Source: Neotamlana laminarinivorans
GTDB lineage: Bacteria; Bacteroidota; Bacteroidia; Flavobacteriales; Flavobacteriaceae
Direction: 5' to 3'
Length of the DNA: 64,000 bases
NCBI RefSeq assembly: GCF_020523925.1
Contig: NZ_JAJAPW010000007.1
Coordinates: 1 to 64,000, forward strand
Notes under the pieces: generated by a model
What the model saw: the letters and a program-made list of their open reading frames with translations, nothing else
What the model was told of the DNA's origin: nothing
The model's database searches: none
Part shown: positions 7,012 to 31,026 of the stretch, piece after piece
How positions within the stretch are numbered: position 1 is the first letter of the stretch
Layout: every line of letters begins with the position of its first letter
Position numbers and translations under genes: made by a program

Positions 7012-7044
7012 AATTGTAATTTAAAAACAACAAATACATACACA

Positions 7045-7851
7045 ATGAAAGTATTAGTAATTGGAGCAGGAAACATGGGGCTTACTTATGCCGAAGGCAT
7101 GTCTAAATCAAAACTTCTTAAGCGCAAGAATATTATGGTTTTAGATAAATCTGAAGAAAAGTTAGAAGCACTAAATCAAATGGAACATTTTGATGCTTTT
7201 AGTGATTTAAAAGATTGCGTTCCCGAAGCAGACATTATTTTTGTAGCCGTAAAGCCCTATCACGCCGAAGCTTTATTTAAAACTATAAAGCCTATGGTAA
7301 ATAGCCAACAAATAGTAATATCTATTATGGCAGGAGTTACCATTGCTTCAATAAAAGAGCACACTGGTTTACAAAAAATAGTAAGAGCAATGCCAAATTT
7401 ACCTGCAAAAATAGGTAAAGGTTTAACTTCTTACGTTATATCTCCAGAAGTTTCACGAATAGAAATGTTAACTGTAGAAAGTTTATTAGATACCACAGGA
7501 AAATCTTTACAAGTAAGCAACGAAATGCGAATTGATGCTTCCACAGGAATTAGTGGTAGTGGGCCTGCATACGTGTTTTACTTTATGCAAAGTATGATGG
7601 AAGCCGCTATGCAAATGGGTTTTTCTAAAAACGAATCAACAGTTTTGGTGAGTCAGACCTTTTCTGGTGCCGTCGAGCTTTTTAAGCAATCGAACTTATC
7701 GCCAAATTCTTGGATGGAGCGTGTAGCCTCAAAAGGAGGAACAACACGAGCAGCTCTAGACTCTATGGAAGATAACAATGTAAACGAATTAATTAAAGAA
7801 GCCGCTTTTGCTGCATTTAACAGAGCAGTAGAACTTGGTAAAGAACATTAA
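7045..7851 (+). CDS. proC: Pyrroline-5-carboxylate reductase
   Basis: 268 residues, the normal family length. It reduces pyrroline-5-carboxylate to proline with NAD(P)H in the cytoplasm. The N-terminus holds the Rossmann motif VIGAGNMG (residues 4-11). The C-terminal half has the family signatures SGSGPAYVF and GGTTRAALDSME, where substrate binding and dimerisation occur. It is followed after one base by proB, so glutamate kinase and the last step of proline synthesis are coupled. proA, which supplies the middle step, is not in this window. Confidence 0.96.
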   Translation: MKVLVIGAGNMGLTYAEGMSKSKLLKRKNIMVLDKSEEKLEALNQMEHFDAFSDLKDCVPEADIIFVAVKPYHAEALFKTIKPMVNSQQIVISIMAGVTIASIKEHTGLQKIVRAMPNLPAKIGKGLTSYVISPEVSRIEMLTVESLLDTTGKSLQVSNEMRIDASTGISGSGPAYVFYFMQSMMEAAMQMGFSKNESTVLVSQTFSGAVELFKQSNLSPNSWMERVASKGGTTRAALDSMEDNNVNELIKEAAFAAFNRAVELGKEH

Positions 7852-14700: not shown

Positions 14701-14708
14701 TATATTTG
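14701..14708 (+). promoter_or_regulatory. -7 element of the DUF4856/imelysin group
   Basis: TATATTTG at 14701-14708 matches the -7 consensus, 38 bases before the DUF4856 start codon. At the -33 position lies AAGATTATTCTT (14668-14679), a short AAGA...TCTT inverted repeat resembling the larger palindrome at 24824-24848. Confidence 0.5.
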
Positions 14709-14745
14709 CGCCAAACTATTTTAAATTAATCTAAATAAACAAAAA

Positions 14746-15945
14746 ATGAAAAAGATTGTTTTAAGTGCTCTTGTTATGGGGAGTTTTTTTGTATCCTGTT
14801 CTAGCGACGATAATGGAGGAGATTCTGGAGTAGTAGCTCCTGCATCTTATTCTTTTACTAGAGACGGTGAACCTACAGTAGATTTTAATGGGCAAACCAC
14901 TAGAATTTTAATGGGAGAAGAGTTTTTATCGGCTCTAACCGAAACTAGTAATTCCGAAGCGGTTTTAGATGCTATGTTTGCACATGCCGAAGGAGAAAGC
15001 GATTTTAGTGATGCCGATTTAAATGCATCAGATAAAAGTATTAGAAGTAAAACAGCTGCATCAACCGATTATTTTTCTGCAAATACAACAGATGCAAGCG
15101 CTATTAAAGCAGAGTTCGACTCTTGGATTGCAGCACAAGTTGATGAAGTTTTCCCTAACTGGGATACAGATGCTGTTTCAGGAACTGCGGGTAAAATTCA
15201 AGAAGCTGGTGGTGGTTCTACAAGATATGTAAACGCAAAAGGTTTAGAGTATAATCAGGCAATTAATAAAGGTTTAATAGGAGCTTTAATGGTCGATCAA
15301 GCTTTAAACAACTATTTAAGTCCTGCGGTTTTAGATGCAGGATCAAATGTAGCAGATAATGATGCCGATGTTGTTGCCGATGGAAAATCGTATACAAACA
15401 TGGAGCATAAATGGGACGAAGCTTACGGTTATGTTTATGGATTAAATGCTGATGCTACAAACCCAAATGCAGATTTAGGTGCAGATAGTTTCTTAAATAA
15501 ATATATTGGTAGAGTAGAAGATGATGACGATTTTGCAGGTATTGCAGACGAAATTTACGAAGCTTTTAAATTAGGAAGAGCAGCAATTGTAGCTAAAAAT
15601 TACGATGTAAGAGATGCTCAAGCCGAAGTTATTAAAGAAAAGTTATCTGAAGTAATTGGTGTAAGAGCTGTTTATTACTTATTACAAGGAAAATTAAATT
15701 TAGGTGTAGATTATGCTTCTGCATTTCACGATTTATCTGAAGGTTTTGGTTTTGTTTATAGCTTACAGTTTACAAGACAACCAAATTCAGACGAGCCATA
15801 TTTTACTAAAGCCGAAGTAGATGCTTTTATTGCAACCTTAACAGATGGTAATGGTTTCTGGGACATTTCTACAGACGATTTAGATGCTATGGCTACAGAA
15901 ATAGCCTCTCGTTTTAACTTCACAACAGAGCAAGCTGGAAGTTAA
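14746..15945 (+). CDS. DUF4856 domain lipoprotein
   Basis: 399 residues with a lipoprotein signal peptide (lipobox SFFVSC, Cys19) followed by SSDDNGG, typical of surface or periplasmic lipoproteins in this group. The body matches DUF4856 (YSFTRDGEPTVDFNGQT near the N-terminus, KGLEYNQAINKGLIGALMVDQ in the middle, EHKWDEAYGYVYG). The helical EHKWDEAYGY region is reminiscent of iron-binding imelysin-like helices, but the function is not known. It is regularly found next to imelysins, as here, which suggests a role in iron or heme handling. It has its own promoter and terminator. Confidence 0.9.
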   Translation: MKKIVLSALVMGSFFVSCSSDDNGGDSGVVAPASYSFTRDGEPTVDFNGQTTRILMGEEFLSALTETSNSEAVLDAMFAHAEGESDFSDADLNASDKSIRSKTAASTDYFSANTTDASAIKAEFDSWIAAQVDEVFPNWDTDAVSGTAGKIQEAGGGSTRYVNAKGLEYNQAINKGLIGALMVDQALNNYLSPAVLDAGSNVADNDADVVADGKSYTNMEHKWDEAYGYVYGLNADATNPNADLGADSFLNKYIGRVEDDDDFAGIADEIYEAFKLGRAAIVAKNYDVRDAQAEVIKEKLSEVIGVRAVYYLLQGKLNLGVDYASAFHDLSEGFGFVYSLQFTRQPNSDEPYFTKAEVDAFIATLTDGNGFWDISTDDLDAMATEIASRFNFTTEQAGS

Positions 15946-15973
15946 TTCACACATACATTATTAATTTAGTTTT

Positions 15974-16012
15974 TTAAGTTGCTGTTGTATTAATTTACAA
16001 TGGCAACTTTTA
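15974..16012 (+). terminator. Terminator after the DUF4856 gene
   Basis: AAGTTGCTGTTGTA (15976-15989) pairs with TACAATGGCAACTT (15996-16009) with two G-T pairs and a 6-base loop, followed by TTTTAG. It overlaps the upstream side of the next promoter. Confidence 0.75.
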
Positions 16013-16013
16013 G

Positions 16014-16021
16014 TATTTTTG
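16014..16021 (+). promoter_or_regulatory. -7 element for the first imelysin gene
   Basis: TATTTTTG at 16014-16021 matches TAnnTTTG and lies 15 bases before the imelysin ATG, so the leader would be about ten bases. No good -33 motif is visible because that position lies in the preceding terminator. Confidence 0.45.
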
Positions 16022-16036
16022 TAAAAAAAAATAAAA

Positions 16037-17128
16037 ATGAAAAAAATTATTCTAGGAACTATAATTATTGGCTTTATTATAGCTTGTAGTTCTTCTTCAT
16101 CTGGTGGCAGTGGTGGAACTACCGATAATTACGACAGAAGCGCACTTCTTGTAAATTTAGCCGATAATATCATTATTCCGGCTTTTCAAGATTTAGAAAC
16201 CGAGCTTTCGGCACTAACAGAAGCTAAAAACAATTTTGTAGCTACACCAAATCAAGCCAATTTAGAGGCTTTAAGAGCATCTTGGTTAACTGCTTACACA
16301 GCATGGCAGTATGTTGAAATGTTTAATATTGGTGAAGCAGAAACGGTACTTTATGGTTTCCAAATGAATATTTACCCAACAAATATTGACGATATATCTG
16401 CAAATATAAATTCTGGTTCTTACGATTTAACACATACAAATAACAACGATGCCGTTGGTTTTCCTGCTGTAGATTATATGATATATGGTTTAGCCGATAA
16501 CGACACCGATATATTAACGTTTTACCAAAGTGAAAACTATACAAGTTATCTTTCAGATTTAATAGATCAAATGGAAAGCTTAACATCAAGTGTTTTAACA
16601 AACTGGAATAGTTCTTACCGAAATACTTTTGTAAGCCAAACAGGAAATACGGCAACAAGCTCTTTAAATAAATTTACAAACGATTTTATTTATTATTTCG
16701 AAAAAGGATTAAGATTGAATAAATTTGGGACTCCAGCAGGTGTTTTTTCTACAGATCCTTTACCAGAAACAGTTGAAGCATTATATGCCAAAGCATTTTC
16801 AAAAGATTTGGCTTTAGAAGCTTTAAGTGCTGTTGAAGCTGTTTTTTATGGCGATGCCTTTTCAGGAAGTGGTTCTGGTGAAAGTTTTGAAAGCTATTTA
16901 ATTAGCTTAGATAGAGCAGATTTAGTAACCGAAATTGCAACGAAGTTTGAAGATGCCAGAGAAAAAATTGAAGCTTTAGATGATAGTTTTTACGATCAAA
17001 TAAATACAGATAATACAAAAATGACTGAAGCTTATGATGCATTACAGTTATTGGTAGTATCTTTTAAAGTTGATATGTTACAAGCCTTCAATATTAGCGT
17101 TGATTATCGTGATAACGATGGCGATTAA
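16037..17128 (+). CDS. Imelysin family lipoprotein (motif altered)
   Basis: 363 residues with lipobox GFIIACSSS (Cys17). The two-domain helical imelysin fold is indicated by ASWLTAYTAWQYVEMFNIG near residue 80 and the paired C-terminal half ending FNISVDYRDNDGD. Imelysins are periplasmic or surface proteins linked to iron or heme uptake. The family's GxHxxE motif is here GFPAVDYMIYG (near residue 140): His is replaced by Pro and Glu by Asp, so metal binding at that site is doubtful. It lies between a DUF4856 lipoprotein and an HTTM gene and has a terminator right after it. Confidence 0.9.
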   Translation: MKKIILGTIIIGFIIACSSSSSGGSGGTTDNYDRSALLVNLADNIIIPAFQDLETELSALTEAKNNFVATPNQANLEALRASWLTAYTAWQYVEMFNIGEAETVLYGFQMNIYPTNIDDISANINSGSYDLTHTNNNDAVGFPAVDYMIYGLADNDTDILTFYQSENYTSYLSDLIDQMESLTSSVLTNWNSSYRNTFVSQTGNTATSSLNKFTNDFIYYFEKGLRLNKFGTPAGVFSTDPLPETVEALYAKAFSKDLALEALSAVEAVFYGDAFSGSGSGESFESYLISLDRADLVTEIATKFEDAREKIEALDDSFYDQINTDNTKMTEAYDALQLLVVSFKVDMLQAFNISVDYRDNDGD

Positions 17129-17147
17129 TTTTTAAAATATTTTAATT

Positions 17148-17177
17148 AAAGGTTGCTTAAAAGCAACCTTTTTTTTG
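17148..17177 (+). terminator. Terminator after the first imelysin gene
   Basis: AAAGGTTGCTT (17148-17158) pairs with AAGCAACCTTT (17161-17171), leaving a very tight loop, followed by a T run. It ends within ten bases of the HTTM start codon, so it can also act as an attenuator. Confidence 0.88.
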
Positions 17178-17182
17178 TTAAA

Positions 17183-18559
17183 ATGAACATGAGTTTAAGC
17201 TCGTATTTAAATAAAAAAACAAATGCAGCACCATTAGCAGTTTTTAGAATTGCTTTTGGCATCATGATGTGTTTAAGTATGGTTCGTTTTTCGTATCATG
17301 GTTGGATAGAAACCCTTTATTTGCAGCCTAAATTTCATTTCTCTTATTATGGTTTTTCTTGGGTTAAACCAATTGGTAATTACACCTATTTACTTTTTGT
17401 AATTTGTGGTTTATCAGCGTTATGTGTTGCCGTTGGGTTAAAATATAGGTTGGCCATTATTACCTTTTTCTTAAGTTTTACTTATATCGAGTTAATGGAT
17501 AAAACCAGCTACTTAAACCATTATTACTTTATAAGTTTATTAAGTTTTTTAATGATTTTTTTACCGGCAAGTACATACTTTTCGGTGGATAATTTAATTC
17601 GAAAAAAGACTTTTAAAAACGTTCCTAAATGGAGTATAGATAGTATAAAATTACTACTCGGAATCGTTTATTTTTATGCTGGTTTAGCAAAATTAAATTC
17701 CGATTGGTTATTTAGAGCTCAACCTCTAAAAATATGGTTGCCTTCAAAATACGATTTACCCATTATAGGCGATACATTAATGCACCAAACTTGGTTTCAT
17801 TATGTTATGAGTTGGAGTGGTATGTTGTACGATTTATGTATTCCTTTTTTATTGCTTTATCGTAAAACCAGAATATACGCTTTTATTTTAGTGGTGTTTT
17901 TTCATGTGTTTACACGAGTTTTATTTCCCATTGGTATGTTTCCGTTTATCATGATTGTAAGTTCATTAATATTTTTTGAGTCGGACTTTCATCAGAAAAT
18001 AATAAATTTTTTAAAACGTGTTTTAAATAAGCTCTCATTTAGTTCTAAACAAGTACCTCATTTAAAAATCTACGATTATTGTGCTATAAAAATTAAAAAA
18101 GCAACGCTAACTATTGTTGGGCTGTTTTTTATACTGCAATTAGCAATACCATTTCGTTATTTGCTTTATCCTGGAGAATTATTCTGGACCGAAGAAGGTT
18201 ACCGTTTTTCGTGGCGCGTTATGCTTATGGAAAAAATGGGAATTGCTACTTTTAAAATAGTTAACGCAGAAACAGGCGACTTTTTTTATGTTGATAATAG
18301 CGATTTTTTAACACCATTCCAAGAAAAGCAAATGAGCTTTCAACCCGATTTTATTTTAGAGTACGCACATTATTTAGGCGATCATTTTACATCTCAAGGT
18401 CATAAAAATGTACAAGTATTTGTAGATAGTTATGTGGCACTTAATGGACGTTTAAGTAAGCCGTTTATTGATAAAACCGTAAATTTGTACGCCCAAAAAG
18501 AATCGTTTAAATCAAAATTTTGGATATTACCTTTTAAAGATGACATTAAAGGACTTTAA
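17183..18559 (+). CDS. HTTM domain membrane protein (vitamin K carboxylase-like)
   Basis: 458 residues from ATG 17183 (ATG 17189 also possible); a TTG at 17153 is inside the terminator and is rejected. The first 290 residues hold about eight hydrophobic helices and match the HTTM/vitamin K-dependent gamma-carboxylase membrane domain: PLAVFRIAFGIMMCLSM at the N-terminus, MDKTSYLNHYYFISLLSF and YFYAGLAKLNSDWLF with the conserved KxN. The C-terminal 150 residues are soluble. The substrate in these gene clusters is unknown. Its last 20 bases overlap the following TonB receptor gene, so translation is probably coupled. Confidence 0.88.
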   Translation: MNMSLSSYLNKKTNAAPLAVFRIAFGIMMCLSMVRFSYHGWIETLYLQPKFHFSYYGFSWVKPIGNYTYLLFVICGLSALCVAVGLKYRLAIITFFLSFTYIELMDKTSYLNHYYFISLLSFLMIFLPASTYFSVDNLIRKKTFKNVPKWSIDSIKLLLGIVYFYAGLAKLNSDWLFRAQPLKIWLPSKYDLPIIGDTLMHQTWFHYVMSWSGMLYDLCIPFLLLYRKTRIYAFILVVFFHVFTRVLFPIGMFPFIMIVSSLIFFESDFHQKIINFLKRVLNKLSFSSKQVPHLKIYDYCAIKIKKATLTIVGLFFILQLAIPFRYLLYPGELFWTEEGYRFSWRVMLMEKMGIATFKIVNAETGDFFYVDNSDFLTPFQEKQMSFQPDFILEYAHYLGDHFTSQGHKNVQVFVDSYVALNGRLSKPFIDKTVNLYAQKESFKSKFWILPFKDDIKGL

Positions 18560-20957
18560 ATTTATTATCGCACTAATTTTTAGTGTGTCTGCTTTCTCTC
18601 AACAAAACGTTACCGGTGTGGTAACATTTCAAGAAAAACCTGTAAACGCCGTTAATGTTTACGATAAAGACTCCGGTTTATTAGCCATTACAGATGCCTC
18701 TGGAACTTTTAAATTTTCAACACATAAAATAAATTTAACTTTAGTGTTCTATGCTTCAGAATACGAAATAAAAGAAGTTATAATTAACTCCAAACAATCC
18801 AATAATTTAAAAATTGAACTATATAGTTTAGCCACCGAACTTTCCGAAGTTGTTGTAAATGCTAACAAACGTAAAGCGTTCGAACTAAAACGTTTAAACG
18901 ATGTTGAAGAAACCGCTATTTACGCTGGTAAGAAAACCGAAGTGGTTTTAATAGATCAATCTATGGCGAATTTAGCAAGCAATAATGCACGCCAAATTTA
19001 CAGTCAAGTAGCGGGCTTAAATATTTACCAAAACGACGATGCTGGTTTGCAATTAAATATTGGTGGTCGTGGCTTAGATCCAAACCGAACGGCTAATTTT
19101 AATACCAGACAAAACGGTTACGATATTAGTGCCGATGTTTTAGGTTACCCAGAAAGTTATTACTCGCCACCTGCAGAGGCTTTAAGCGAAATTCAAATTG
19201 TTCGTGGTGCGGCTTCGTTGCAATACGGAACACAATTTGGTGGTTTGGTTAATTTTAAATTTAAAGAACCGAACTCTTCAAAACCATTAGAGTTTATTAC
19301 TAGAAATACTTTAGGAAGTTTTGGCTTGTTTACAAATTTTACAAGTGTTAGCGGAACACAGAATAAATTAAGTTATTATACTTATGCAAATTATAAAAAA
19401 GGTGATGGGTTTAGACCAAATTCAGAGTTTGAATCTATAAACACTTTTACTCATTTAGGTTATCAACTTTCCGAAAAAACTAAAATTGAAGGCGAACTTA
19501 CTTATTTAAATTATTTGGCAAAACAAGCGGGCGGTTTAACCGATGATATGTTTTACAACAATCCTTATCAAAGTAATCGCGCTAGAAATTGGTTTAAAGT
19601 AGATTGGTTACTCTATAATTTAAAATTAGCCCACGAGTTTAATGCCAATACCAATTTTACGTTTAATTTTTTTGGATTGAATGCGTCGCGAAAAGCTTTG
19701 GGTTTTAGAACAAACCGTGTAAGTCAAGTAGACTCTGGTGAAGCGCGTGATTTAATTGTAGGCGATTTTAATAATTTCGGATTCGAGTCTAGATTACTAA
19801 GCAAGTACACAATTTTAAATAAAAATGCCACCTTTTTAATTGGAACTAAATTTTATAAAGCCAATAATTACCAAAGACAAGGTCCTGGGAGTGATGGTGC
19901 TGATGCTGATTTTAATTTTTATAATGATGATTTTCCTAATTACTCAGATCAATCGGAATTTGATTTGCCAAACTTTAATGTTTCTGTGTTTGGAGAAAAT
20001 ATTTTTTATGTAACCGATAAGTTTTCGGTAACACCAGGATTTAGATTTGAATATATTAAAACCGAAAGTGAAGGTTTTTACAAACAAATAAATACAGATG
20101 CTGCTGGAAATGTAATTTTTGAAGAAGATGTTGCAGATAATAGAAATTTTGAGCGCTCGTTTGTGTTATTGGGCATTGGGTTAAGTTATAAACCTAATAG
20201 TAGTTTAGAATTTTACGGAAACGTTTCGCAAAACTACCGTTCGGTTACATTTTCCGATATAAATATTGCGAATCCTGCTTTTTCAATAGATCCAGATATT
20301 ACAGATGAAGAAGGCTTTACAGCCGATTTAGGTATTCGTGGAAATTATAAAGGTTACGTATCTTACGATGCTGGTTTATTTTGTTTGTTTTACAACGGAA
20401 GAATTGGTTTTGTGCAAAAAGAAGCTGCCGATGGAAGTATAACAAGCCAACGTGGTAATGTTGGAGATGCTGTTATGTATGGCGTAGAGTCTTTATTCGA
20501 TTTTAATTTGAAAAAGATTTTAGGTTTGAATAATAATATTCAGCTTAATTATTTTATAAATACTTCAATAATTAATTCGGAGTACACCAGTTCGGAAGAA
20601 CCGGGAGTAGAAGGTAATAAAGTAGAATTTGTTCCCGATTTAAATTTAAAAACAGGTTTAAACGGTGGTTACAAAAACCTACTGGCAAGTATTCAATATA
20701 CCTATTTGGGGCAACAGTTTACAGATGCTACAAATGCAACGGCAGGAAGTATTAGTGGTGTTATTGGAGAAATACCAGCTTACGATATTTTAGACCTGTC
20801 GTTATCGTATAAATACAAAAAATTTAAGCTTGAAACAGGCGTAAATAATGTTTTAGATAATGCCTACTTTACAAGACGTGCAACCGGTTATCCGGGGCCG
20901 GGAATTATTCCTTCGGCGCCCAGAAATTGGTATGTTACTTTGCAAATTAAGCTTTAA
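18540..20957 (+). CDS. TonB-dependent receptor, FecA-like
   Basis: 805 residues. A signal peptide (ends near SAFSQ) is followed by a CarboxypepD-regulatory-like beta domain (about 22-95), a plug domain (about 110-225, with NIGGRGLDPNR and VRGAASLQYGTQFGGLVNF) and a 22-strand barrel ending NWYVTLQIKL. The plug and barrel resemble Fe(III)-dicitrate-type receptors. Such receptors import iron complexes or cofactors across the outer membrane using TonB energy. The ATG lies inside the end of the HTTM gene (20-base overlap). It overlaps the convergent imelysin by four bases. Confidence 0.92.
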   Translation: MTLKDFKFIIALIFSVSAFSQQNVTGVVTFQEKPVNAVNVYDKDSGLLAITDASGTFKFSTHKINLTLVFYASEYEIKEVIINSKQSNNLKIELYSLATELSEVVVNANKRKAFELKRLNDVEETAIYAGKKTEVVLIDQSMANLASNNARQIYSQVAGLNIYQNDDAGLQLNIGGRGLDPNRTANFNTRQNGYDISADVLGYPESYYSPPAEALSEIQIVRGAASLQYGTQFGGLVNFKFKEPNSSKPLEFITRNTLGSFGLFTNFTSVSGTQNKLSYYTYANYKKGDGFRPNSEFESINTFTHLGYQLSEKTKIEGELTYLNYLAKQAGGLTDDMFYNNPYQSNRARNWFKVDWLLYNLKLAHEFNANTNFTFNFFGLNASRKALGFRTNRVSQVDSGEARDLIVGDFNNFGFESRLLSKYTILNKNATFLIGTKFYKANNYQRQGPGSDGADADFNFYNDDFPNYSDQSEFDLPNFNVSVFGENIFYVTDKFSVTPGFRFEYIKTESEGFYKQINTDAAGNVIFEEDVADNRNFERSFVLLGIGLSYKPNSSLEFYGNVSQNYRSVTFSDINIANPAFSIDPDITDEEGFTADLGIRGNYKGYVSYDAGLFCLFYNGRIGFVQKEAADGSITSQRGNVGDAVMYGVESLFDFNLKKILGLNNNIQLNYFINTSIINSEYTSSEEPGVEGNKVEFVPDLNLKTGLNGGYKNLLASIQYTYLGQQFTDATNATAGSISGVIGEIPAYDILDLSLSYKYKKFKLETGVNNVLDNAYFTRRATGYPGPGIIPSAPRNWYVTLQIKL

Positions 20958-22021
20958 TCGCCATCATTATCGGTGGCAAGTACAGAAATAGATAAAGTAC
21001 TAGCACCATCAACCGAAAAATATACGACTAAAGTATAAAGTTCGTTGTATAGAAGTTCTACGTTTTCATCATTATTTAAAATAGCATCGTATAAACTAGA
21101 ATCTATATTATTTATATAAGTGAAAATGTTTGTGAAACTAGCATCAATATTATCCGATAGTTCTGTGTTACCTGCAATGTCGTCCACAATATTCGCGAAA
21201 TTAGCGCTACTTAAAGCATAGGCGTTTTGCACTTCTTCTAATTCGCTTTTAATTAAGTTTAGCGATTGTCCGCTGCGGTAAGCTTCTAAATCAGTTACAG
21301 TTGCACTGCTTGAGCTTTCCAAACCGCTTGGTTTTCCTAATTTGGTTACGCGAATAACATCAATAACATTAATAAGTTGGTTAAAGGCCAAACAACGTGC
21401 GTTTTCGGTACAGGATACATCGGTTAAATTAATAAATGTGTTTTTGTAATTAAGTTCCCAAAAATCAACTAAATTATTGGTTTGGTTTAAAACTTCTGTA
21501 GTAACGCCAAGCAAATAATCTACTCTAAAGGTGTCATTTTGTAAAAGGCTTAAAGCAGTTGCTTCATCTTGTTCGTTGTAAAGTAAATATTCCAAAGCAC
21601 CTAAACCTTTTGATACTGTACTTTTTGTACTAAAGTAAGTAGCATCGTAAGTTGTTTGTTCTTCAATGTTGGTTTCAATAACCGATGGTGTTACAGGAAA
21701 ATTGTAAATTATAATATCGTAAAACAAAGATTTTACTGCAAGCACGTTATATGGTCTTACTTTCGCAAAAGCTTCAGTGGTTGCTAGCCATTGGTTTTGT
21801 AGGCTAATAAAATTTTCTTTTGTTGGTGTTGTTTGAAACGTTTCAGATAAACTGACTTGTAATTCTACTTGAGCTTTAAATGTAGTAAGCGCAGGATAAA
21901 TATTTTCGTTGTAATAGTTGTTGTGAAATGTTGTAATTGCAGATTCTGAATTGTCATCATCTTTCTTACAGGCAATTACTAAAATAGCCAAGGCTAAAAT
22001 GCTGAAAATTAGTTTTTTCAT
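20954..22021 (-). CDS. Imelysin family lipoprotein (second, motif partly altered)
   Basis: 355 residues with lipobox ILVIACKK (Cys18). The helical two-repeat pattern of imelysins is clear (NQWLATTEAFAKVRPYNV in the first half, FSVDGASTLSISVLATDNDGD at the end). The GxHxxE motif becomes KGLGALEYLLYN near residue 143: Gly replaces His while Glu is kept. Only three bases separate it from the upstream di-heme oxidoreductase gene, so both are on one transcript. It probably works with that enzyme on iron or heme at the cell surface; this is inferred from the gene pairing. Confidence 0.9.
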   Translation of the reverse strand: MKKLIFSILALAILVIACKKDDDNSESAITTFHNNYYNENIYPALTTFKAQVELQVSLSETFQTTPTKENFISLQNQWLATTEAFAKVRPYNVLAVKSLFYDIIIYNFPVTPSVIETNIEEQTTYDATYFSTKSTVSKGLGALEYLLYNEQDEATALSLLQNDTFRVDYLLGVTTEVLNQTNNLVDFWELNYKNTFINLTDVSCTENARCLAFNQLINVIDVIRVTKLGKPSGLESSSSATVTDLEAYRSGQSLNLIKSELEEVQNAYALSSANFANIVDDIAGNTELSDNIDASFTNIFTYINNIDSSLYDAILNNDENVELLYNELYTLVVYFSVDGASTLSISVLATDNDGD

Positions 22022-22024
22022 TTT

Positions 22025-23434
22025 TTATAAAGAGTTTAGGAAGCTTAAAAGTTGTTCCCGTTCGGTTGCTGTTAAATTCATAAAATTGTTTTTTGATGTT
22101 TCGGCTTCACCACCGTGCCATAAAATAGCTTCTTCAATATTACGAGCTCTTCCATCGTGAAGTAAAAAGGTATGATCGTTTACAAGTTCAATCATGCCTA
22201 ATCCCCAAAGTGGTTGCGTACGCCACTCGTTACCTGTTGCTAAAAAATCGGCTCTATCATCGGCTAAATCGTCTCCCATATCGTGTAATAAAAAATCGGA
22301 ATATGGCCTAATTGTTACATTGTCTATAATTGGAACAATTTCAGATTGTCCGGTAACGTAATAATCGACATGGCAGTTTACACAAGCTAAATTTTTAAAA
22401 AGTTCTTTTCCTTTTAGCACATCGTAAGTATCGTAATCTCGTCTTACAGGTACAGAAATGCTACTCATATAAACCATCATTCGGCTAAGTTGGGTATCTG
22501 GAACTTCTACATCTTCACCTTCATTATTTCCATTTGGAATAGTAGAACAATCTACACCAGAAGGACAGTTTTCTTCAGGAAAAAGGGTAGTGGTTAATCC
22601 CATGTCTCCATTAAAAGCCCCAGAAACTTGCTGTGTTAATGTAGGTTGATTAGCCTTCCAGCCAAATTTCCCTAAAGTAGTTTTGTTTTCGGCAATATTC
22701 CAAACATAATTGGCTTTACCAGAAATGCCATCGCCATCGGTATCAAACTCGTCTTCATATTCTAAAATACTGGCATCGCTTAAAGCTTCAATAAAACCTA
22801 AACCAATAAGTTGTTGCCCAATTCTAGGTGATTGTTCTGCAGAAAGTGCTCCATAATTTGTGTTAATTACTGTGTATGTAGGTTTGCGTAATTCGTAAGT
22901 TGTGCCATCTGGATATGCTCCAGAAATATACTCGAAATTAACGGCTATATCGCCTTCGGCTTCAATGTTTAGGTTAGAAGCATCTTGTAGTTGATCGCCA
23001 TATGTAGCATGTGGTATTGGACCAGTTATAGGGTTGTTCCCCGAACTTAATCGCAGTAAAAAACCACTACTTGCAGCGCCAGTTTCTAGTATAGGTTCTC
23101 CACGACCATCGTTTAAGTGACACGTAGCACAAGCTCTAGCATTAAAAATAGGACCTAAACCGTCACGAGAAGTTGTTGAAGCTGGAGCTGAAACCCATGT
23201 TTGATTAAACATAGCGTTGCCAACTCCAAAGAATGCAGTTTCTAAGTCTGTTAAGTTGGGTATATTTGTGCCAAAAGCTTTATCTGCAGTAAAGCCTGTT
23301 ATTGAAAAATCTGAAACTAAATTTTCTTCATCAATTTCATAAGTTAAGTTTATATAATCTTGCTCGGTAAACTCATCATCTTGACAGGAGAAAACCAAAA
23401 TAGATACGCATAGCAACCAACTAATCTTTTTCAT
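22025..23434 (-). CDS. Di-heme oxidoreductase family protein (DUF1111)
   Basis: 469 residues. The signal peptide ends in a lipobox-like LVFSCQDD (Cys17). Two c-type heme sites are visible: ACATCHLNDGRGEP near residue 100 and ACVNCHVDYY near 355. The family hallmark YSDFLLHDMGDDLADDRADF and EWRTQPLWGLGMI (residues 385-425) follows. The family is also named thiol oxidoreductase with CxxC motifs. It is repeatedly found between imelysin genes and is thought to be tied to iron or heme uptake; the redox substrate is not known. Confidence 0.93.
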   Translation of the reverse strand: MKKISWLLCVSILVFSCQDDEFTEQDYINLTYEIDEENLVSDFSITGFTADKAFGTNIPNLTDLETAFFGVGNAMFNQTWVSAPASTTSRDGLGPIFNARACATCHLNDGRGEPILETGAASSGFLLRLSSGNNPITGPIPHATYGDQLQDASNLNIEAEGDIAVNFEYISGAYPDGTTYELRKPTYTVINTNYGALSAEQSPRIGQQLIGLGFIEALSDASILEYEDEFDTDGDGISGKANYVWNIAENKTTLGKFGWKANQPTLTQQVSGAFNGDMGLTTTLFPEENCPSGVDCSTIPNGNNEGEDVEVPDTQLSRMMVYMSSISVPVRRDYDTYDVLKGKELFKNLACVNCHVDYYVTGQSEIVPIIDNVTIRPYSDFLLHDMGDDLADDRADFLATGNEWRTQPLWGLGMIELVNDHTFLLHDGRARNIEEAILWHGGEAETSKNNFMNLTATEREQLLSFLNSL

Positions 23435-23449
23435 CTACATTTTTTTTGG

Positions 23450-23499
23450 CAAATTTATAAAATAACTAAAGTCTCAATAAAAATATTGAGACTTTAGTT
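23450..23499 (-). promoter_or_regulatory. -7 element and 15-bp inverted repeat upstream of the di-heme gene
   Basis: On the minus strand TAAATTTG (plus-strand 23450-23457) fits the -7 consensus, 16 bases before the di-heme start codon. Just upstream is a perfect 15-bp inverted repeat, AACTAAAGTCTCAAT / ATTGAGACTTTAGTT (23464-23478 and 23485-23499), loop six bases. It may terminate transcripts of the upstream imelysin or serve as an operator. Confidence 0.5.
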
Positions 23500-23541
23500 T
23501 ATAATAATATGTTGTTTTAATATAGTGCAGTAATGCTTATA

Positions 23542-24753
23542 TTATTGAATTGTAATACTAACACCTAAAGCGGTAGCAGCTTCAGAAATAGCTGTACTTT
23601 GTGTAATTAAAGCAGAAGCTAAATCGCCAGCAGGCCCTCCAGATTCTAAAGTTTCTTCGCTAATTATTTCGTCGAAGTTTTTACCTAAACCTAATAAGGT
23701 ATCTAACTTATCTAAAGTATCGTTTGCATCGGCTTCTAAATTTGAAGCTGTGTCACCAGATACTAAATCAATTAAAGAAGTACCCGAAACAGTAGTTCCG
23801 CTTTCTGTTGTGTAACTACCAACAATTACGTTGTTAATTCCGTTTACGTTTGCCCACATATCTTGGTTAGTGTTATCAGAGAAACAAGAATGTTCGTTTT
23901 CTTGACCTTCATCAATAGCAGGGTAAATACGCTCTTGAGCAACCTCACCGTTAGAAATAAAACCAATACCATTTAATATGTTTGTTAACGCTGTATCTTC
24001 ATCTAAAGCTAAAAATGTTGTACGGTAAGAACCTCCAGATGCCCAAGTTGTGTTTAAATCGCTTAAATCGTTTACTAATAAATCGGTAACAATTTTTAAG
24101 TAAGTCGCTCTACGATCTGCAAAATCAGCAGTTGTATAATCTGTATATGCTCTTTCTCCAGAAACAGAATAATCGGTTTGAAAATTAGTTGTGTTAATAT
24201 TATAATCTTGCCCCCAAAGTAAGAACTCGATGGCGTGCCATCCTGTTGAAATGTTTTCAGGAATATCGTCACCCTCATTTGCTCCAATAATATTTGCTTC
24301 TGTTAACTCGAAAGAGTCATCACCAATTAAACCGTTATTTACTAAGGTGTGTGTCGTGCTATCGTAAACGTAATCAATATAACCTTCATCTAAAGGCCAT
24401 GCGTTAATGCGTCCTTCTGTTCCTAATAAATCTTCGTTATCAATTGGTCCGTTAGCTTCCCTAAAAGCTTCTGTTTGTCCGTAAAAATCACGAGCATATA
24501 ACCAAGCATCTTGTGCTGCTACAAAAGTAGTTTCATTAGGGTCTGCAAGAAAAGCATCAATGGCAGTTTGCATATCTACAGCAGTGTTGTATGAATCTGA
24601 ATAGTTTGCAGAAACAATTTCTGCATAAGTTTCTATAAAGTCGGCAACGTCTGCAGTTTCTTCTGTTCCACCTCCATTGTCATCACTAGAACATGATGCA
24701 AAAACTAATGTAATAACCAATAAAAAAATTTGGTAAGTTGATTTCAATTTCAT
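23542..24753 (-). CDS. Imelysin family lipoprotein (canonical GxHxxE)
   Basis: 403 residues with lipobox VFASCSSDD (Cys20). It keeps the full imelysin metal motif: TGWHAIEFLLWGQDY near residue 172 (GxHxxE). Other family signatures are AAQDAWLYARDFYGQTEAF near residue 82 and RIYPAIDEGQENEHSCFSDN near 265, which match insulin-cleaving/iron-regulated IrpA-type members. It is therefore the most likely true iron or heme binder of the three imelysins here. It has its own promoter with a strong upstream palindrome. The hairpin between it and the di-heme gene may uncouple the two. Confidence 0.93.
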   Translation of the reverse strand: MKLKSTYQIFLLVITLVFASCSSDDNGGGTEETADVADFIETYAEIVSANYSDSYNTAVDMQTAIDAFLADPNETTFVAAQDAWLYARDFYGQTEAFREANGPIDNEDLLGTEGRINAWPLDEGYIDYVYDSTTHTLVNNGLIGDDSFELTEANIIGANEGDDIPENISTGWHAIEFLLWGQDYNINTTNFQTDYSVSGERAYTDYTTADFADRRATYLKIVTDLLVNDLSDLNTTWASGGSYRTTFLALDEDTALTNILNGIGFISNGEVAQERIYPAIDEGQENEHSCFSDNTNQDMWANVNGINNVIVGSYTTESGTTVSGTSLIDLVSGDTASNLEADANDTLDKLDTLLGLGKNFDEIISEETLESGGPAGDLASALITQSTAISEAATALGVSITIQ

Positions 24754-24792
24754 TTTATCAATTTGTATTTAGACTTATTTTAAATAATAGTG

Positions 24793-24848
24793 CAAATATA
24801 TTTGCTTTTTGCTTAAAACAAAATTTATTTAGAATAAATCTTAATAAA
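24793..24848 (-). promoter_or_regulatory. Imelysin promoter with upstream 25-base imperfect palindrome
   Basis: Read on the minus strand: TTTG (plus-strand 24819-24822), 18-base spacer, TATATTTG (24793-24800). Immediately upstream of the -33 element lies an imperfect palindrome, TTTATTTAGA...TCTTAATAAA (24824-24848, about 20 of 25 positions symmetric). Position and symmetry fit an operator; an iron-dependent regulator is a guess from the regulated genes. Confidence 0.55.
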
Positions 24849-24859
24849 AAGTTAATGGG

Positions 24860-24890
24860 TTTGTGTAATAAAATTCTTTAAGTATTTTTT
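24860..24890 (+). promoter_or_regulatory. Likely promoter of the second beta-barrel receptor
   Basis: TTTG at 24860-24863, a 19-base spacer and TATTTTTT at 24883-24890 (one mismatch to TAnnTTTG). It lies about 66 bases before the TTG start codon of the receptor and 12 bases from the palindrome of the divergent imelysin promoter. Confidence 0.45.
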
Positions 24891-24955
24891 AACAGATTGA
24901 AATTAAACCATGTAAAATAATTACAGTCTTAAAATAAACCAACCAAACAACTACA

Positions 24956-27697
24956 TTGAAAAAAATATTCATTTTGCTTGCATTGAGCTTTTCTGCTACC
25001 ATGTTTGCACAAAAATTTATGCTCGAAGGTATTGTAAAAGATAAAGATTCTCTTACCCTAGAAGCCGCTACCGTTTATTTACAAAGTATTTCTGATAGCA
25101 TTCCTATTGCCTATGGCATTACAAATAGAGAAGGTAAATTTTCGTTACAAGTAAATACTTATGAGGATACTAAGGCAATTTTTAATATAGCTTATATGGG
25201 ATATAAGCCTTACAGTAAGACAATTGCTGTGCCTAAAAGTGATTATTTAAATTTAGGAACGCTTGTTTTAGAAGATCAAGCTGAGGCTTTAACCGCTATA
25301 TCCATAATAGCTAAAGCACCACCTGTGGTTATTAAAAAAGATACGATTGAATATAATGCTGACAGTTTTAAAAGCTTGCCAAACGACAAAGCCGAAGATT
25401 TACTAAAAAAACTTCCAGGTGTAGAAATTGATGCCGATGGTTTAATAACAGTAAATGGTGTTGAAGTTGAAGCTATAAATGTTGATGGTATGCCATTTTT
25501 TGGTGAAAAAAACGGAGAAATAGCTTTAAAAAACCTGCCAAGTGGTGTAATAAGTAAAGTACAGGTTACCGATTTTAAAACCAACATGCAAAAATTTACA
25601 GGAGAAGAATCTGATTCTGGTACAAAAGAAATTAACTTTAAAATTAAAAAAGGAAAAAATCGAGCCATGTTTGGCGATATTAAAGTAGGCGCAGGAACAG
25701 ATAATAAGTACCAAGGCAACGCTAATATTTTTCAAGTTGTAGATGGTAAACAACTAGGTGTTATTGCTGGTACTAATAATATTAACATGTCTAGAGGTTT
25801 TAGTGCTTTACCTAATACCAGTGCGAGTACCGGATATTTAGAATCCGATTTTGTTGGCGCCAATTATAGTAAAGGTAAATGGAACGAAAATAGAATAAAC
25901 TCCAATTACAACTACACAGCTCAAGACCGCGAAACAGCTCAAAAAAGTTATAGAGAAAATTTTTTACCAGATTTAAATTACATAACCGAATCTGAAAGTA
26001 CAGGTTATAACGAATCCGATAGCCATAAAGCTAAAGCCGATTTGCAAAAAATTATAAACCCAAAATATAAATCATCTAAGCAAAGGTTAAAAATATCTAA
26101 CGAAACAAATTTTAATTTAGCAAATACCATTTCGGGCAGTCAAAGTGCGAGTACATCGTCGTATAGCGATGGTGAGTTAGTTAGCGATTATACATCCAGA
26201 AACCAAACAGAAGCTTCAAATTATAATATTCAAAATAATTTTGATGTAACAGCATCGCAAGGTCATGGTAATTATTTTAATATAGGTGTAAATACTAATT
26301 TTAGTAAATCTAATAGCGATGTAAATAGTTATTCTGAAAACATTTTGTACAACACCGATGAAACCATTATTCAAGATCAAGAAAAGAATAACGAAAATAA
26401 AAGCAGTAACATAAATGTAAATACAATTTTAGTAAAAGAAATTTTTGAAGATTTTAAAATTATACCAAGATATTCAGCAACTGTAAACACATCAAAAACA
26501 GAAAATTTTATTTATGATTTTAATGAAGATTTACAAACTTACAGCGATTTTAATGAAAACATAAGTACTAATAGTAAATACATTACAACAACTTTAAAAC
26601 CTTCGCTAAAATTACGATATGATGTTAGTGATTTTAGATTTGAAATAGAAGGCGCTCACACAACAACCTACAGAGATTATAAAGATGAACTTATTGAAGC
26701 TAGAAATTTTAAAAGAGGCTTTAAATATTTAACTTATAGCGGCAGAATTCGTTATCGCGACGAAAAAGGTTATAAACGCATAACTTTAGACTATAACCAA
26801 GGTGTAAATTTACCTTCGGTTAGCCAATTACAACCCGTAGAAGATGTTAGTAATATTACCCACATTCGCGTTGGTAATCCCGATTTAGAGCCACAAATAA
26901 ATCATAATATTAGGTTTCGTTATCAAAACGATATTGCATTTCATAACATAAATGTATCAGGCGATGCACGAGCCGAATTTACACAAGACAAAATTTTAAA
27001 CTCAACCATTACCAATTCCGATTTAAATAAATATACCACGTATACCAATTTAAACGGCGATTACTATTTACGCGGTAATGCATCAGTTTCAAAATCATAT
27101 TTCAATAAAAAAACAAATTTTAATCTTAACGGAAGCTTAATGGCGAGTTTCGATAATAGTTTGTCTTTGCAAAACGGATTAAAGTTTACTGCACAAACAA
27201 TAACCATTCGCCCTAGAATATCACTTAATTGTTTGTATAACGACATTATAGATGTAAACACAAGTTACAGCTATTCAACAATTAAAAGTGTTTACGATAC
27301 CGATAGTTTTAGCGATAACAATTACTTTATTCAAAATTTACAGTTTAATTCTTCCATATTTTTTATTAAAAATGTGTTATTCGTTACCAATAAAGTGTCC
27401 TACAGATATAATAGTCAAGTAGGAAACGAATACGATGCCGATGCTATTTTTTGGAATGCTGGTGTAGGAGCCGAACTTATTGAAAATAAAGCCACAGTAA
27501 CCTTGGTTGGTTACGATGTTTTAGGGAAAAATAATGGTTATAGGCGTTCGGTAACAGATACTTACATTCAAGATGTTGAAAATCGTATTTTAGAGCAATA
27601 TTTTATGCTGAATTTTACCTATAAATTTGGAAGTTTCGCCGGTCAAAAAATGAGCGGATTTAATTCTAACAAAGGAAGACGTGGTGGTAGAGGTTAA
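24956..27697 (+). CDS. Outer-membrane beta-barrel protein, TonB-receptor-like
   Basis: 913 residues, starting at TTG 24956 (the only start giving a proper signal peptide, KKIFILLALSFSATMFAQ). A CarboxypepD-regulatory-like domain (about 22-105) is followed by a plug-like region (IEYNADSFKSLPNDKAEDLLKKLPG, INVDGMPFFGEKNG) and an OMP_b-brl_3-type barrel. The C-terminus is a Gly/Arg-rich RRGGRG. This class of TonB-linked barrel is common in the phylum; the ligand is unknown. It is divergent from the imelysin gene with only 202 bases between them, so it may belong to the same response. Confidence 0.88.
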   Translation: MKKIFILLALSFSATMFAQKFMLEGIVKDKDSLTLEAATVYLQSISDSIPIAYGITNREGKFSLQVNTYEDTKAIFNIAYMGYKPYSKTIAVPKSDYLNLGTLVLEDQAEALTAISIIAKAPPVVIKKDTIEYNADSFKSLPNDKAEDLLKKLPGVEIDADGLITVNGVEVEAINVDGMPFFGEKNGEIALKNLPSGVISKVQVTDFKTNMQKFTGEESDSGTKEINFKIKKGKNRAMFGDIKVGAGTDNKYQGNANIFQVVDGKQLGVIAGTNNINMSRGFSALPNTSASTGYLESDFVGANYSKGKWNENRINSNYNYTAQDRETAQKSYRENFLPDLNYITESESTGYNESDSHKAKADLQKIINPKYKSSKQRLKISNETNFNLANTISGSQSASTSSYSDGELVSDYTSRNQTEASNYNIQNNFDVTASQGHGNYFNIGVNTNFSKSNSDVNSYSENILYNTDETIIQDQEKNNENKSSNINVNTILVKEIFEDFKIIPRYSATVNTSKTENFIYDFNEDLQTYSDFNENISTNSKYITTTLKPSLKLRYDVSDFRFEIEGAHTTTYRDYKDELIEARNFKRGFKYLTYSGRIRYRDEKGYKRITLDYNQGVNLPSVSQLQPVEDVSNITHIRVGNPDLEPQINHNIRFRYQNDIAFHNINVSGDARAEFTQDKILNSTITNSDLNKYTTYTNLNGDYYLRGNASVSKSYFNKKTNFNLNGSLMASFDNSLSLQNGLKFTAQTITIRPRISLNCLYNDIIDVNTSYSYSTIKSVYDTDSFSDNNYFIQNLQFNSSIFFIKNVLFVTNKVSYRYNSQVGNEYDADAIFWNAGVGAELIENKATVTLVGYDVLGKNNGYRRSVTDTYIQDVENRILEQYFMLNFTYKFGSFAGQKMSGFNSNKGRRGGRG

Positions 27698-29307: not shown

Positions 29308-29341
29308 AAAAAGGCTTGAGTTTTACTCAAGCCTTTTTTTA
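29308..29341. terminator. Bidirectional terminator between guaB and the PqqB-like gene
   Basis: AAAGGCTTGAG (29310-29320) pairs with CTCAAGCCTTT (29326-29336), flanked by an A run on the left and a T run on the right, so it can work on both strands. The minus-strand gene's stop codon lies at its edge. Confidence 0.9.
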
Positions 29342-30316
29342 TAGCTTATAAATATCATGAATTTGGGCAATATTAAAGCCTGCTTTTATAACAGTTTGCG
29401 CTTCTTCACTATTTAAATTAATTACAGGATTGGTGTGATTAAAATGAATAAATATAATTTTGTTTTTTTCAGAAAGTGGTAAGTTCTTAAATAAATCTAA
29501 GCTTTCTTGAATAAACGGATGCGGAATTGTAGACATATCGCGGTTATTTAACTCTTTACCACTAAAAAATGTGGCATCAACAAAGGCGTAGTCTACAGTT
29601 TTAATTTCTTCAATAATACTTTTTTTCCATTTACTCCATTTATCAATGTCTGGGATAAATAAAGCGGATTTGTTTTTACCTTTTATTTTGTAGCCAACCG
29701 TTTCGGAATACTCGTCTCTGTGTGGTACTAAAAAAGGCGTAACGTTTAAGTTATTGGTTAAAGTTATAGTTTGCTCATCTTGAATATCTTTTAAAATAAT
29801 ATCTTCAGTTTTAACTAACTGACTCCAAGGTCCGTTGCTTTCTAAAAATGTTTTCATTTTAGGCATGGCAAAAACAGGAACTTTACTGGCATTCATAGCT
29901 TCTTTACCCAAATACATTAAGCCCGTATAATGCCCAATGTGTGCATGTGTTAAAAATATGCCATCAGGAATTTCGTTGGTGTTTTTTATGTTTGGATTAA
30001 CAAGCGCCTTAGTTTGGGTTACAAAATCGGGTGAAGCTTCAAACATATATTTCTTTTTAAATTCATTATCAATTAAACCTAAAGAAACTACCTGTCTGTT
30101 TTTATCTGGATTATTAAAAAGTGTTTTGCAGCAATCTTTTTGGCAACCAATTTGTGGCGAACCGGCATCTTGGATGGTTCCAAGAATTATTATAGCTGTT
30201 TCATTTGAGTTTATTTGGGGTGTTGAGGTTTTTGTATTGGATTTCGCGATGTTTTTTTCTTTACATGAAAAAGATATTAGTATTACTAAAAGGAGTGCTA
30301 TACGAGTTCGGTTCAT
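29339..30316 (-). CDS. PqqB-like MBL fold metallo-hydrolase lipoprotein
   Basis: 325 residues with a lipoprotein signal (lipobox LISFSCKE, Cys18). The metallo-beta-lactamase fold shows FLTHAHIGHYTGLMYLG near residue 122, PHRDEYSETVGY near 200, and IFIHFNHTNP near 290. The GTIQDAGSPQIGCQKDCC segment near residue 47 matches PqqB-type proteins. Known PqqB acts in PQQ synthesis, but no other pqq gene is present and this one is secreted as a lipoprotein, so another hydrolase or oxidase role is likely. The substrate is unknown. Confidence 0.87.
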   Translation of the reverse strand: MNRTRIALLLVILISFSCKEKNIAKSNTKTSTPQINSNETAIIILGTIQDAGSPQIGCQKDCCKTLFNNPDKNRQVVSLGLIDNEFKKKYMFEASPDFVTQTKALVNPNIKNTNEIPDGIFLTHAHIGHYTGLMYLGKEAMNASKVPVFAMPKMKTFLESNGPWSQLVKTEDIILKDIQDEQTITLTNNLNVTPFLVPHRDEYSETVGYKIKGKNKSALFIPDIDKWSKWKKSIIEEIKTVDYAFVDATFFSGKELNNRDMSTIPHPFIQESLDLFKNLPLSEKNKIIFIHFNHTNPVINLNSEEAQTVIKAGFNIAQIHDIYKL

Positions 30317-30437: not shown

Positions 30438-31016
30438 TTAAGTGAAAACTACCTCAATAGCGAAAGTTACTTCTACGTCTGTGCTACCACCTGCATCTTC
30501 AGAAGTTCCATCGTTTGGTTTTGTAGGTTCGTGCTTTAAAACAATAGTTAAAGAACCTGTACCTGCTTCACCTGTTGTTAAAGATGTGTCAATTCCAATT
30601 GGGTTACCGTCTTCATCAACATCGTTTTTTGTGATTACGATATCTGAAATGGTAGAAGTATAGAAAAATTCGTGCTCGTCACCTTCTTCTTCAACTTCTT
30701 CAGTAATGTCTTCAGCAGGATCTTCTGTTTCGTTTAATAATTGAATAGAACCAGAATACTGAGTATTAGCTACAAAACTTCCAGAAACTTCAGTAGTTCC
30801 GTCTGCACCACCATCACCGTCTAAATCTTCAAAAGTAAGGGTTACCGTGTTTCCATTTGCATCTTCTAGGGTATAAATAACTGTTGTTATAAGTTCTTCT
30901 TCGTGTTCGTGATCATCATCGTGATCGTCGTCACTAGAACAGCTAACTAAGGCTAAACTAGAGATAAAAAATAAGGCTAATAATTTTATTGTTTTTAATG
31001 AATTTATTTTTTTCAT
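30438..31016 (-). CDS. His/Asp-rich lipoprotein of a metal-receptor operon
   Basis: 192 residues. The lipobox LALVSCSS (Cys26) is followed at once by DDDHDDDHEHEEE, a cluster of His and acidic residues suited to binding zinc or copper. The rest is beta-rich and Asp-rich (EDLDGDGGADG, KNDVDEDGNPIGID). Related proteins in this family of bacteria are annotated only by fold. It is encoded ten bases after a TonB receptor, which it probably serves as a surface metal-capturing partner. The metal assignment is inference from composition and context. Confidence 0.78.
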   Translation of the reverse strand: MKKINSLKTIKLLALFFISSLALVSCSSDDDHDDDHEHEEELITTVIYTLEDANGNTVTLTFEDLDGDGGADGTTEVSGSFVANTQYSGSIQLLNETEDPAEDITEEVEEEGDEHEFFYTSTISDIVITKNDVDEDGNPIGIDTSLTTGEAGTGSLTIVLKHEPTKPNDGTSEDAGGSTDVEVTFAIEVVFT

Positions 31017-31026
31017 GATTTTTGTT

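Follow-up and report, generated by a model that had tools for sequence, protein, structure and literature searches.

A vitamin K-dependent carboxylase homologue within an iron-linked set of two operons in Neotamlana laminarinivorans

The question raised by this locus is what a homologue of the vitamin K-dependent carboxylase is doing among lipoprotein and outer-membrane receptor genes of Neotamlana laminarinivorans; to our knowledge, bacterial homologues of this enzyme have no established job. The stretch analysed, hereafter the window, comprises 64,000 nucleotides (positions 1 to 64,000 of contig NZ_JAJAPW010000007.1), and the contig is part of a 3.6 Mb genome. An earlier note on this DNA had described eight genes as a single cluster for iron or haem uptake. 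All eight reading frames were checked and found where the note had placed them, and Pfam agrees with the families it had assigned; seven of the genes do form operons, but these are two convergent units, and the eighth gene is probably a bystander. Operon A (14746-20957, + strand) encodes a DUF4856 lipoprotein, an imelysin lipoprotein (ImA), a membrane protein homologous to the HTTM/VKGC family and a TonB-dependent receptor. Operon B (24753-20954, - strand) encodes a further imelysin (ImC), the di-haem lipoprotein DHOR and a third imelysin (ImB), in that order, and the 3' ends of the two operons overlap by 4 bases (20954-20957). The tight spacing to which the note had drawn attention was confirmed, with an overlap of 20 bases between the HTTM and receptor genes (18540-18559) and a gap of 3 bases between DHOR and ImB (22022-22024), and from this spacing we infer co-transcription within each operon.

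Gene order, Fur-box-like promoters, wide conservation and an intact core resembling that of the human enzyme GGCX can all be read from the sequence, and the gene set with its predicted promoters, as well as its role in iron, is well supported. Our best explanation, held with about as much doubt as confidence, is that the two operons jointly acquire ferric iron and that the VKGC enzyme modifies a secreted partner, most likely by carboxylation of glutamate. Operon structure, promoter, phylogenetic profile and the catalytic residues that it retains tie a bacterial VKGC to an iron-uptake gene set, which spans several Bacteroidota families. The earlier note had missed both the conserved vitamin K-dependent carboxylase core of the HTTM protein and the fact that imelysin/di-haem operons had already been described.

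Conservation of operon A and its iron-linked promoters

Homologues were classed with a hidden Markov model for the HTTM proteins of operon A, and those scoring above 500 were designated type I. The resulting 122 proteins and loci comprise that of the window, 13 from relatives, two from a DHOR search, 26 from a sample of 118 genomes evenly spread over the phylum, and 80 named loci that are the best-scoring of 585 and biased to close relatives. Some species may occur in both the named and the unnamed sets, and each of several related species was counted on its own. A further 29 HTTM proteins scored between 200 and 500, and weaker matches were left out. The species-labelled loci closest to that of the window include Algibacter, Hyunsoonleella and Flavivirga. 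ImA lies directly upstream and a TonB receptor directly downstream of the type I HTTM gene at 114 of the 122 loci (the exceptions being L059, L070, L090, L103, L178, L184, L196 and L200), which is more than chance, and the strict order DUF4856-ImA-HTTM-receptor is present at 73 of the 80 named loci. Operon A is kept far outside close relatives: in the phylum sample, the ImA-HTTM-receptor trio was found at 25 of 26 type I loci and at 19 of the 20 that lie outside the window's class, where at several loci the gene ahead of ImA has at best a weak match to the DUF4856 model. Among genomes G000-G039, 13 of the 14 with a type I HTTM have an imelysin, against 4 of the 26 without one. Three Tenacibaculum loci (L184, L196 and L200) are rearranged, with ImA, a membrane protein, the receptor, HTTM and a ferric-binding protein in succession; in L184 the membrane protein belongs to the fatty-acid hydroxylase family.

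Both operons start at a Fur-box-like site, control by Fur itself being putative, and Fur-family genes are present in the window's genome. The search used a 19-base box predicted for another genus, in Riemerella anatipestifer (PMC5609570), with the central base as N and at most three mismatches. It returned six matches in the 64 kb window, where 0.43 would be expected, and three of the six lie at the two operon starts. In both window promoters TATATTTG is followed by the box after 9 nt (operon A) or 7 nt (operon B), an arrangement that fits TAnnTTTG-N7/9-box, and we take TAnnTTTG to be the Bacteroidota -7 element. Across loci, a box was counted when at least 15 of 18 bases matched within 150 bp upstream of the predicted start, at a score of at least 90. 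Such a box precedes DUF4856 at 96 of 105 loci (one of the 106 genes was left out because its upstream stretch was too short), ImC at 10 of 14 and ImA at 11 of 124. The corresponding counts were 0/69 for HMGL, 1/67 for IMPDH and 0/29 for non-type I HTTM as control genes, and 1/122 for type I HTTM, 0/120 for the receptor, 0/19 for DHOR and 0/9 for ImB as internal genes; shuffled sequence gave 0 to 0.6 per cent. With a looser box (14/18), the paired architecture of -7 element and box was found upstream of 32 of 105 DUF4856, 6 of 14 ImC and 19 of 124 ImA genes (shuffles gave 0 for each) and of no other gene class, and is therefore not universal.

An iron response, which the earlier note had expected of these genes, is on record for a Riemerella gene run with matching annotations. 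In the wild type, the -Fe/+Fe ratios are printed as 2.41 for RAYM_09794 (hypothetical), 3.07 for 09789 (imelysin), 2.64 for 09784 (vitamin K-dependent gamma-carboxylase) and 2.11 for 09779 (TonB receptor) (PMC5609570, Table 4). In the part of that report drawn on here, the carboxylase appears in a table and is assigned no role. Judging from the locus tags, RAYM_09794 would correspond to DUF4856 and the four genes would be adjacent. Searches of the open-licence literature gave no other paper combining imelysin with vitamin K-dependent gamma-carboxylase, nothing combining imelysin with HTTM or DUF4856, or the HTTM domain with iron, and nothing on DUF4856; carboxylase with Fur and iron in bacteria gave this report as the only bacterial one, by listing, and HTTM with gamma-carboxylation and bacteria gave just a human GGCX paper. 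Bizionia argentinensis carries the operon A quartet (L158), and the transcript of an imelysin-like gene falls in a Bizionia MliR mutant (PMC9478572); these data were set aside as evidence on operon A because, in the text drawn on, the transcript could not be tied to it. As far as tested, neither of the outcomes that the earlier note had named against itself, no iron or haem response of the genes and no conservation beyond close relatives, was found.

The carboxylase homologue and its candidate targets

The HTTM protein (468 aa) combines an HTTM domain (268 bits) and a VKGC lumenal domain (199 bits) in one chain, and its residues 15-465 align with human GGCX. Its AlphaFold2 model (pLDDT 86.4) is predicted to share the GGCX fold, with Z 30.0, a root mean square deviation of 3.3, 444 aligned residues and a TMq of 0.81 against GGCX entry 9wfc; the Z scores of GGCX entries ranged from 20 to 30, with 369-450 residues aligned, and the next structure reached 5.4. 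K217A/K218A mutant structures are also listed for GGCX. Domain content and modelled fold place the protein in the VKGC/GGCX family, as do two residues: H123 and K180 correspond, by a manual count along the alignment, to His160 and Lys218, catalytic residues of human GGCX, and are kept in 121 and 122 of the 122 type I proteins, respectively. The protein thus keeps an intact GGCX-like core, as far as can be judged from its sequence. The segment W345-M359 is among the most conserved and, mapped by hand, faces residues 390-404 of human GGCX, a region that holds variants labelled as Glu-binding site (PMC5343777).

The one type I-bearing genome of G000-G039 without an imelysin match (G017) amounts to a natural loss experiment. 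Its HTTM gene (L070; G017:C1:2086500-2105500) is an orphan between an OMP_b-brl_3 gene and IMPDH, and the encoded protein has lost the H123 equivalent and 21 further near-invariant residues, NHYY having become SSSY. This pattern, in a single genome, would look like the expected result of losing a shared function. The loss of the active-site histidine in a partner-less HTTM also agrees with a different activity, in which the enzyme is a menaquinol epoxidase or a menaquinol-driven ferric reductase and carboxylates no protein; as a reductase, it would oxidise menaquinol at the periplasmic face and pass the electrons to Fe(III) supplied by ImA or DUF4856. The retained quinone-handling core, the presence of menA in the window's genome and the lack of a VKOR for an epoxide cycle are compatible with such an enzyme, and the Leptospira homologue is said to epoxidise without carboxylating. 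However, W345-M359, aligned with the Glu-binding region, is among the parts most strongly conserved, the Lys218 equivalent, reportedly absent in Leptospira, is present in all 122 proteins, and we know of no haem or flavin site in a GGCX-like fold, so that we regard an epoxidase or reductase as doubtful. A non-catalytic membrane factor that localises, folds or inserts ImA, DUF4856 or the receptor would suit the close linkage to ImA and the overlap of the HTTM and receptor genes, observed at 100 of 115 loci (starts taken mechanically), but near-universal GGCX catalytic residues are unexpected for a scaffold and such a factor seems unlikely. The genome of the L034 locus (G000:C48:128682-129455) carries there a second HTTM/VKGC paralogue, between seryl-tRNA synthetase and RibF genes, that keeps the same His and Lys without an imelysin or Fur box; by gene-length pattern, a non-type I HTTM between seryl-tRNA synthetase and RibF-type genes recurs in several relatives.

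Under the preferred explanation, in which the enzyme modifies a secreted partner, the candidate targets are invariant glutamates of the two operon A lipoproteins: E222 and E247 of ImA, kept in 119/119, and E168, E225 and E332 of DUF4856, kept in 106/106, none of which is ever replaced by Asp. H221, D224, H328 and R278 of DUF4856 are kept in at least 95 per cent, and the conserved residues of this protein are plausible metal ligands. Tentatively, a menaquinol-dependent gamma-carboxylase of Bacteroidota may install gamma-carboxyglutamate (Gla) or a related carboxyl on iron-uptake lipoproteins (for instance at ImA E222/E247 or DUF4856 E168/E225/E332) for ferric binding. A kinship of DUF4856 with the imelysins was also considered and set aside as no more than conceivable, the profile comparison having matched just the lipoprotein signal (25 columns). 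A Foldseek comparison of its model with the PDB gave a best match of E 0.25, and structural re-alignment gave Z 4.6, 3.9, 3.6 and 3.0 for the imelysin-superfamily entries 3n8u, 5y4c, 3pf0 and 3at7, with unrelated catenins higher (up to 7.6), so that several folds are still conceivable for DUF4856.

The Peptidase_M75 (imelysin) scores of the three imelysins are 120, 85 and 204 bits, and a joint imelysin profile aligns with the IPPA protein 3pf0 through its last residue (E 1e-28). By the IPPA-type motif GxxxxE, ImB fits, whereas ImA has Asp where Glu is expected. The C-terminal DGD occurs in 118 of 124 ImA-type matches, the six exceptions being four other imelysins beside DHOR and the proteins of L176 and L206, which end in variants of DGD. 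It cannot serve as an HTTM-specific tag because ImB (8 of 9, the ninth having a truncated reading frame) and 3pf0, an imelysin-like protein of Psychrobacter, share it; the main text of PMC3143127 does not mention 'DGD'.

Cargo, proposed mechanism and points against it

Ferric iron is the probable cargo. Close homologues of ferric iron-binding proteins occur near operon A at 8 of the 80 named loci, on the operon A strand in L162, L181, L184, L185, L196, L200 and L206 and on the opposite strand in L194; they match 2pt1, 'Iron transport protein', with a phmmer E of 2e-103, and FbpA and substrate-binding proteins of Fe(3+) ABC transporters are matched as well. Permease, ATPase and ferritin genes are in line with them in L162, and ferritin lies near operon A at 10 of the 80 named loci. 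On this minority of loci, therefore, the ferric-binding-protein and ferritin neighbours favour non-haem ferric iron. In L177 (Oceanihabitans), a ferritin gene (6916-7494) stands directly ahead of ImA in the usual place of DUF4856. Together with the Fur-box-like promoters, the wide conservation of operon A and the iron response in Riemerella, these minority neighbours support the joint action in iron uptake that the earlier note had proposed. The haem alternative that it had coupled to this idea fares differently, and we consider a haem uptake system very improbable. DHOR itself carries haem through its CxxCH motifs, and a possible role of the GxHxxE histidine in binding haem has been considered (PMC3143127), but the ten proteins scanned from the cluster and its flanks matched no haem-uptake family, and the transport and storage neighbours are the ferric-binding protein and ferritin just described. 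Two imelysin-like proteins melted at lower temperatures with hemin and hematin, which the authors did not regard as specific binding (PMC3143127), and the HmuY gene of Riemerella and the gene of its receptor are distinct from the run above and respond more strongly (PMC5609570).

In the mechanism that we propose, iron shortage would raise the expression of operons A and B, and the operon A receptor would import a ferric chelate through the outer membrane, where, or in the periplasm, DUF4856 and ImA would bind iron or hand it on. A secreted partner, on emerging from the Sec pore, would be modified by an inner-membrane enzyme of the VKGC family that draws on menaquinol, O2 and CO2; the presence of menA agrees with this. 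Carboxylation of Glu residues of ImA and/or DUF4856 is the most likely modification, and it might give rise to a site for iron or make an existing one stronger. Where it is present, operon B probably adds redox handling of iron. If Gla is indeed formed on iron-uptake lipoproteins, metal acquisition would be both the job and the starting point of bacterial vitamin K carboxylases, Gla would be a tool of iron uptake besides a binder of calcium, and it would become easier to follow where the clotting-factor enzyme came from in evolution.

Several observations weigh against this explanation. At 72 of the 80 named loci there is no ferric-binding-protein gene in the examined stretch, and the protein has no match in the window's own genome. 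The catalytic His and Lys are kept in 29 of 29 other HTTM proteins that lack an iron context, and these residues are therefore uninformative on iron. The alignment covers human GGCX residues 41-511 and ends there, the C-terminal part with the propeptide site being absent, and no VKOR (PF07884) match was found in the window's genome, with VKOR in just 2 of 23 genomes searched, which leaves the recycling of the epoxide unexplained. ImA lacks the histidine of GxHxxE, and thermofluor showed no binding of haem or ferric ion by two imelysin-like proteins of known structure (PMC3143127). L059 and L090 have HTTM after ImC-DHOR-ImA with neither DUF4856 nor receptor adjoining, and HTTM in L103 has no adjacent partner. 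Finally, the -Fe/+Fe ratios of the four Riemerella genes, in the order given above, persist in the fur mutant (3.07, 2.92, 2.77 and 2.70), with iron, the fur mutant exceeds the wild type by factors of just 1.36, 1.93, 1.39 and 1.90, and none of the 11 Fur boxes tabulated by the authors belongs to RAYM_09794-09779 (PMC5609570); these results argue against a simple Fur story.

Surrounding features, operon B and known systems

Table 1. Positions of the genes and promoter elements of the two operons and the adjoining barrel gene in the window
Feature	Position	Strand	Basis
TATATTTG, resembles Bacteroidota -7 element	14701..14708	+	read directly; Fur-box-like site 9 nt later
Fur-box-like site, operon A	14718..14736	+	3 mismatches to Riemerella consensus
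DUF4856 lipoprotein, operon A gene 1	14746..15945	+	PF16148 512 bits; AlphaFold2 pLDDT 91.9
ImA imelysin lipoprotein, GFPAVD replacing GxHxxE, C-terminal DNDGD	16037..17128	+	PF09375; alignment
HTTM/VKGC-like membrane enzyme	17153..18559	+	PF05090 and PF22777; GGCX alignment E 6e-47; predicted fold Z 30
TonB-dependent receptor, siderophore/FecA-like, below family cut-offs	18540..20957	+	plug and barrel domains
ImB, IPPA-type imelysin lipoprotein, GLGALE, C-terminal DNDGD, operon B last gene	20954..22021	-	PF09375; alignment
DHOR di-haem lipoprotein, CxxCH at residues 102 and 351	22025..23434	-	PF06537 312 bits
ImC, ICMP/LruB-type imelysin lipoprotein, GWHAIE, operon B gene 1	23542..24753	-	PF09375 204 bits
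Fur-box-like site, operon B	24767..24785	-	13 nt ahead of ImC start
TATATTTG, operon B promoter	24793..24800	-	read directly; 7 nt ahead of box
Second intergenic Fur-box-like site	24827..24845	.	2 mismatches
OMP_b-brl_3 outer-membrane barrel, judged outside the system	24956..27697	+	without plug match; neighbourhood; promoter

The two outer-membrane receptors of the earlier note come down to one. The operon A protein is a TonB receptor with a plug, scoring 117 bits against TIGR01783 (cut-off 223.5) and 91 bits against the NCBIfam FecA equivalog, far below the cut-off of 1100 for FecA itself. The barrel at 24956-27697, on the other hand, has no plug-domain match at E 0.001 in the Pfam scan, and its gene points away from operon B. 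A homologue lies near operon A at 4 of the 80 named loci, and among OMP_b-brl_3 genes the paired promoter architecture was found in 0 of 8 and a Fur-box match in 1 of 8, which may stem from the intergenic region shared with ImC. On the promoter and neighbourhood counts this barrel was rejected as a member of the system, and its gene is probably a bystander. Further along the window, 29339-30316 encodes a PqqB-like metallo-beta-lactamase lipoprotein (109 bits, under the PqqB cut-off of 245), and in 30438-33426 a His/Asp/Glu-rich lipoprotein (DDHDDDHEHEEE) adjoins a gene that by appearance resembles a TonB receptor; these two are perhaps a separate metal uptake pair.

Operon B is a known imelysin/di-haem module and an optional addition to operon A. 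ImC-DHOR-ImB converges on operon A both in the window and at 5 of the 80 named loci (L150, L155, L156, L166 and L177); the three genes also lie near operon A in L094, ImC-DHOR does so in L110, and the order ImC-DHOR-ImA-HTTM occurs in L059 and L090. In L087, L088 and L089-L093 except L090, DHOR was found without operon A in the examined stretch. DHOR was rejected as a core part because it is present in just 11 of 60 family genomes, that of the window included, and beside operon A at only those five named loci. The order of capture, release by the di-haem enzyme and import that the earlier note had modelled is conjectural. It is a DHOR/DUF1111 protein by its domain and two haem sites, both CxxCH motifs being present in 19 of 19 homologues. 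ImC scores 173 bits against the LruB model NF047655 of NCBIfam, below the cut-off of 850, and belongs with the ICMP/LruB imelysins as an M75 lipoprotein with the GxHxxE motif.

Besides the Riemerella genes, four known systems can be set beside this gene set. Operons of the PA4370-PA4372 and VC1264-VC1266 type, whose middle gene presumably encodes a di-haem protein, share the gene order of operon B. In both, the GxHxxE imelysin comes first and the GxxxxE imelysin last (PMC3143127). PA4370-PA4372-type operons are Fur-regulated (PMC3143127), and operon B has a Fur-box-like promoter with control by Fur putative; it differs from them in being optional and convergent to operon A, with no gene between ImB and the receptor. 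EfeUOB/EfeM resembles the cluster in that an M75/imelysin-domain protein is tied to iron uptake (PMC9174327), but EfeUOB has an Ftr1-type permease and a DyP peroxidase, and neither was seen in the scan of ten proteins from the cluster and its flanks. Leptospira has both families, with a vitamin K-dependent carboxylase homologue (PMC4555120) and the imelysin LruB (PMC3143127) reported, the latter matched by ImC below cut-off as described. The window's VKGC is, lastly, related to the human enzyme by which blood-clotting proteins are modified, and this kinship offers a direct handle on its bacterial role: human GGCX has a C-terminal third missing from the bacterial protein, and a VKOR match is missing from the window's genome, but nearly the whole bacterial protein aligns with GGCX and keeps the equivalents of both catalytic residues.

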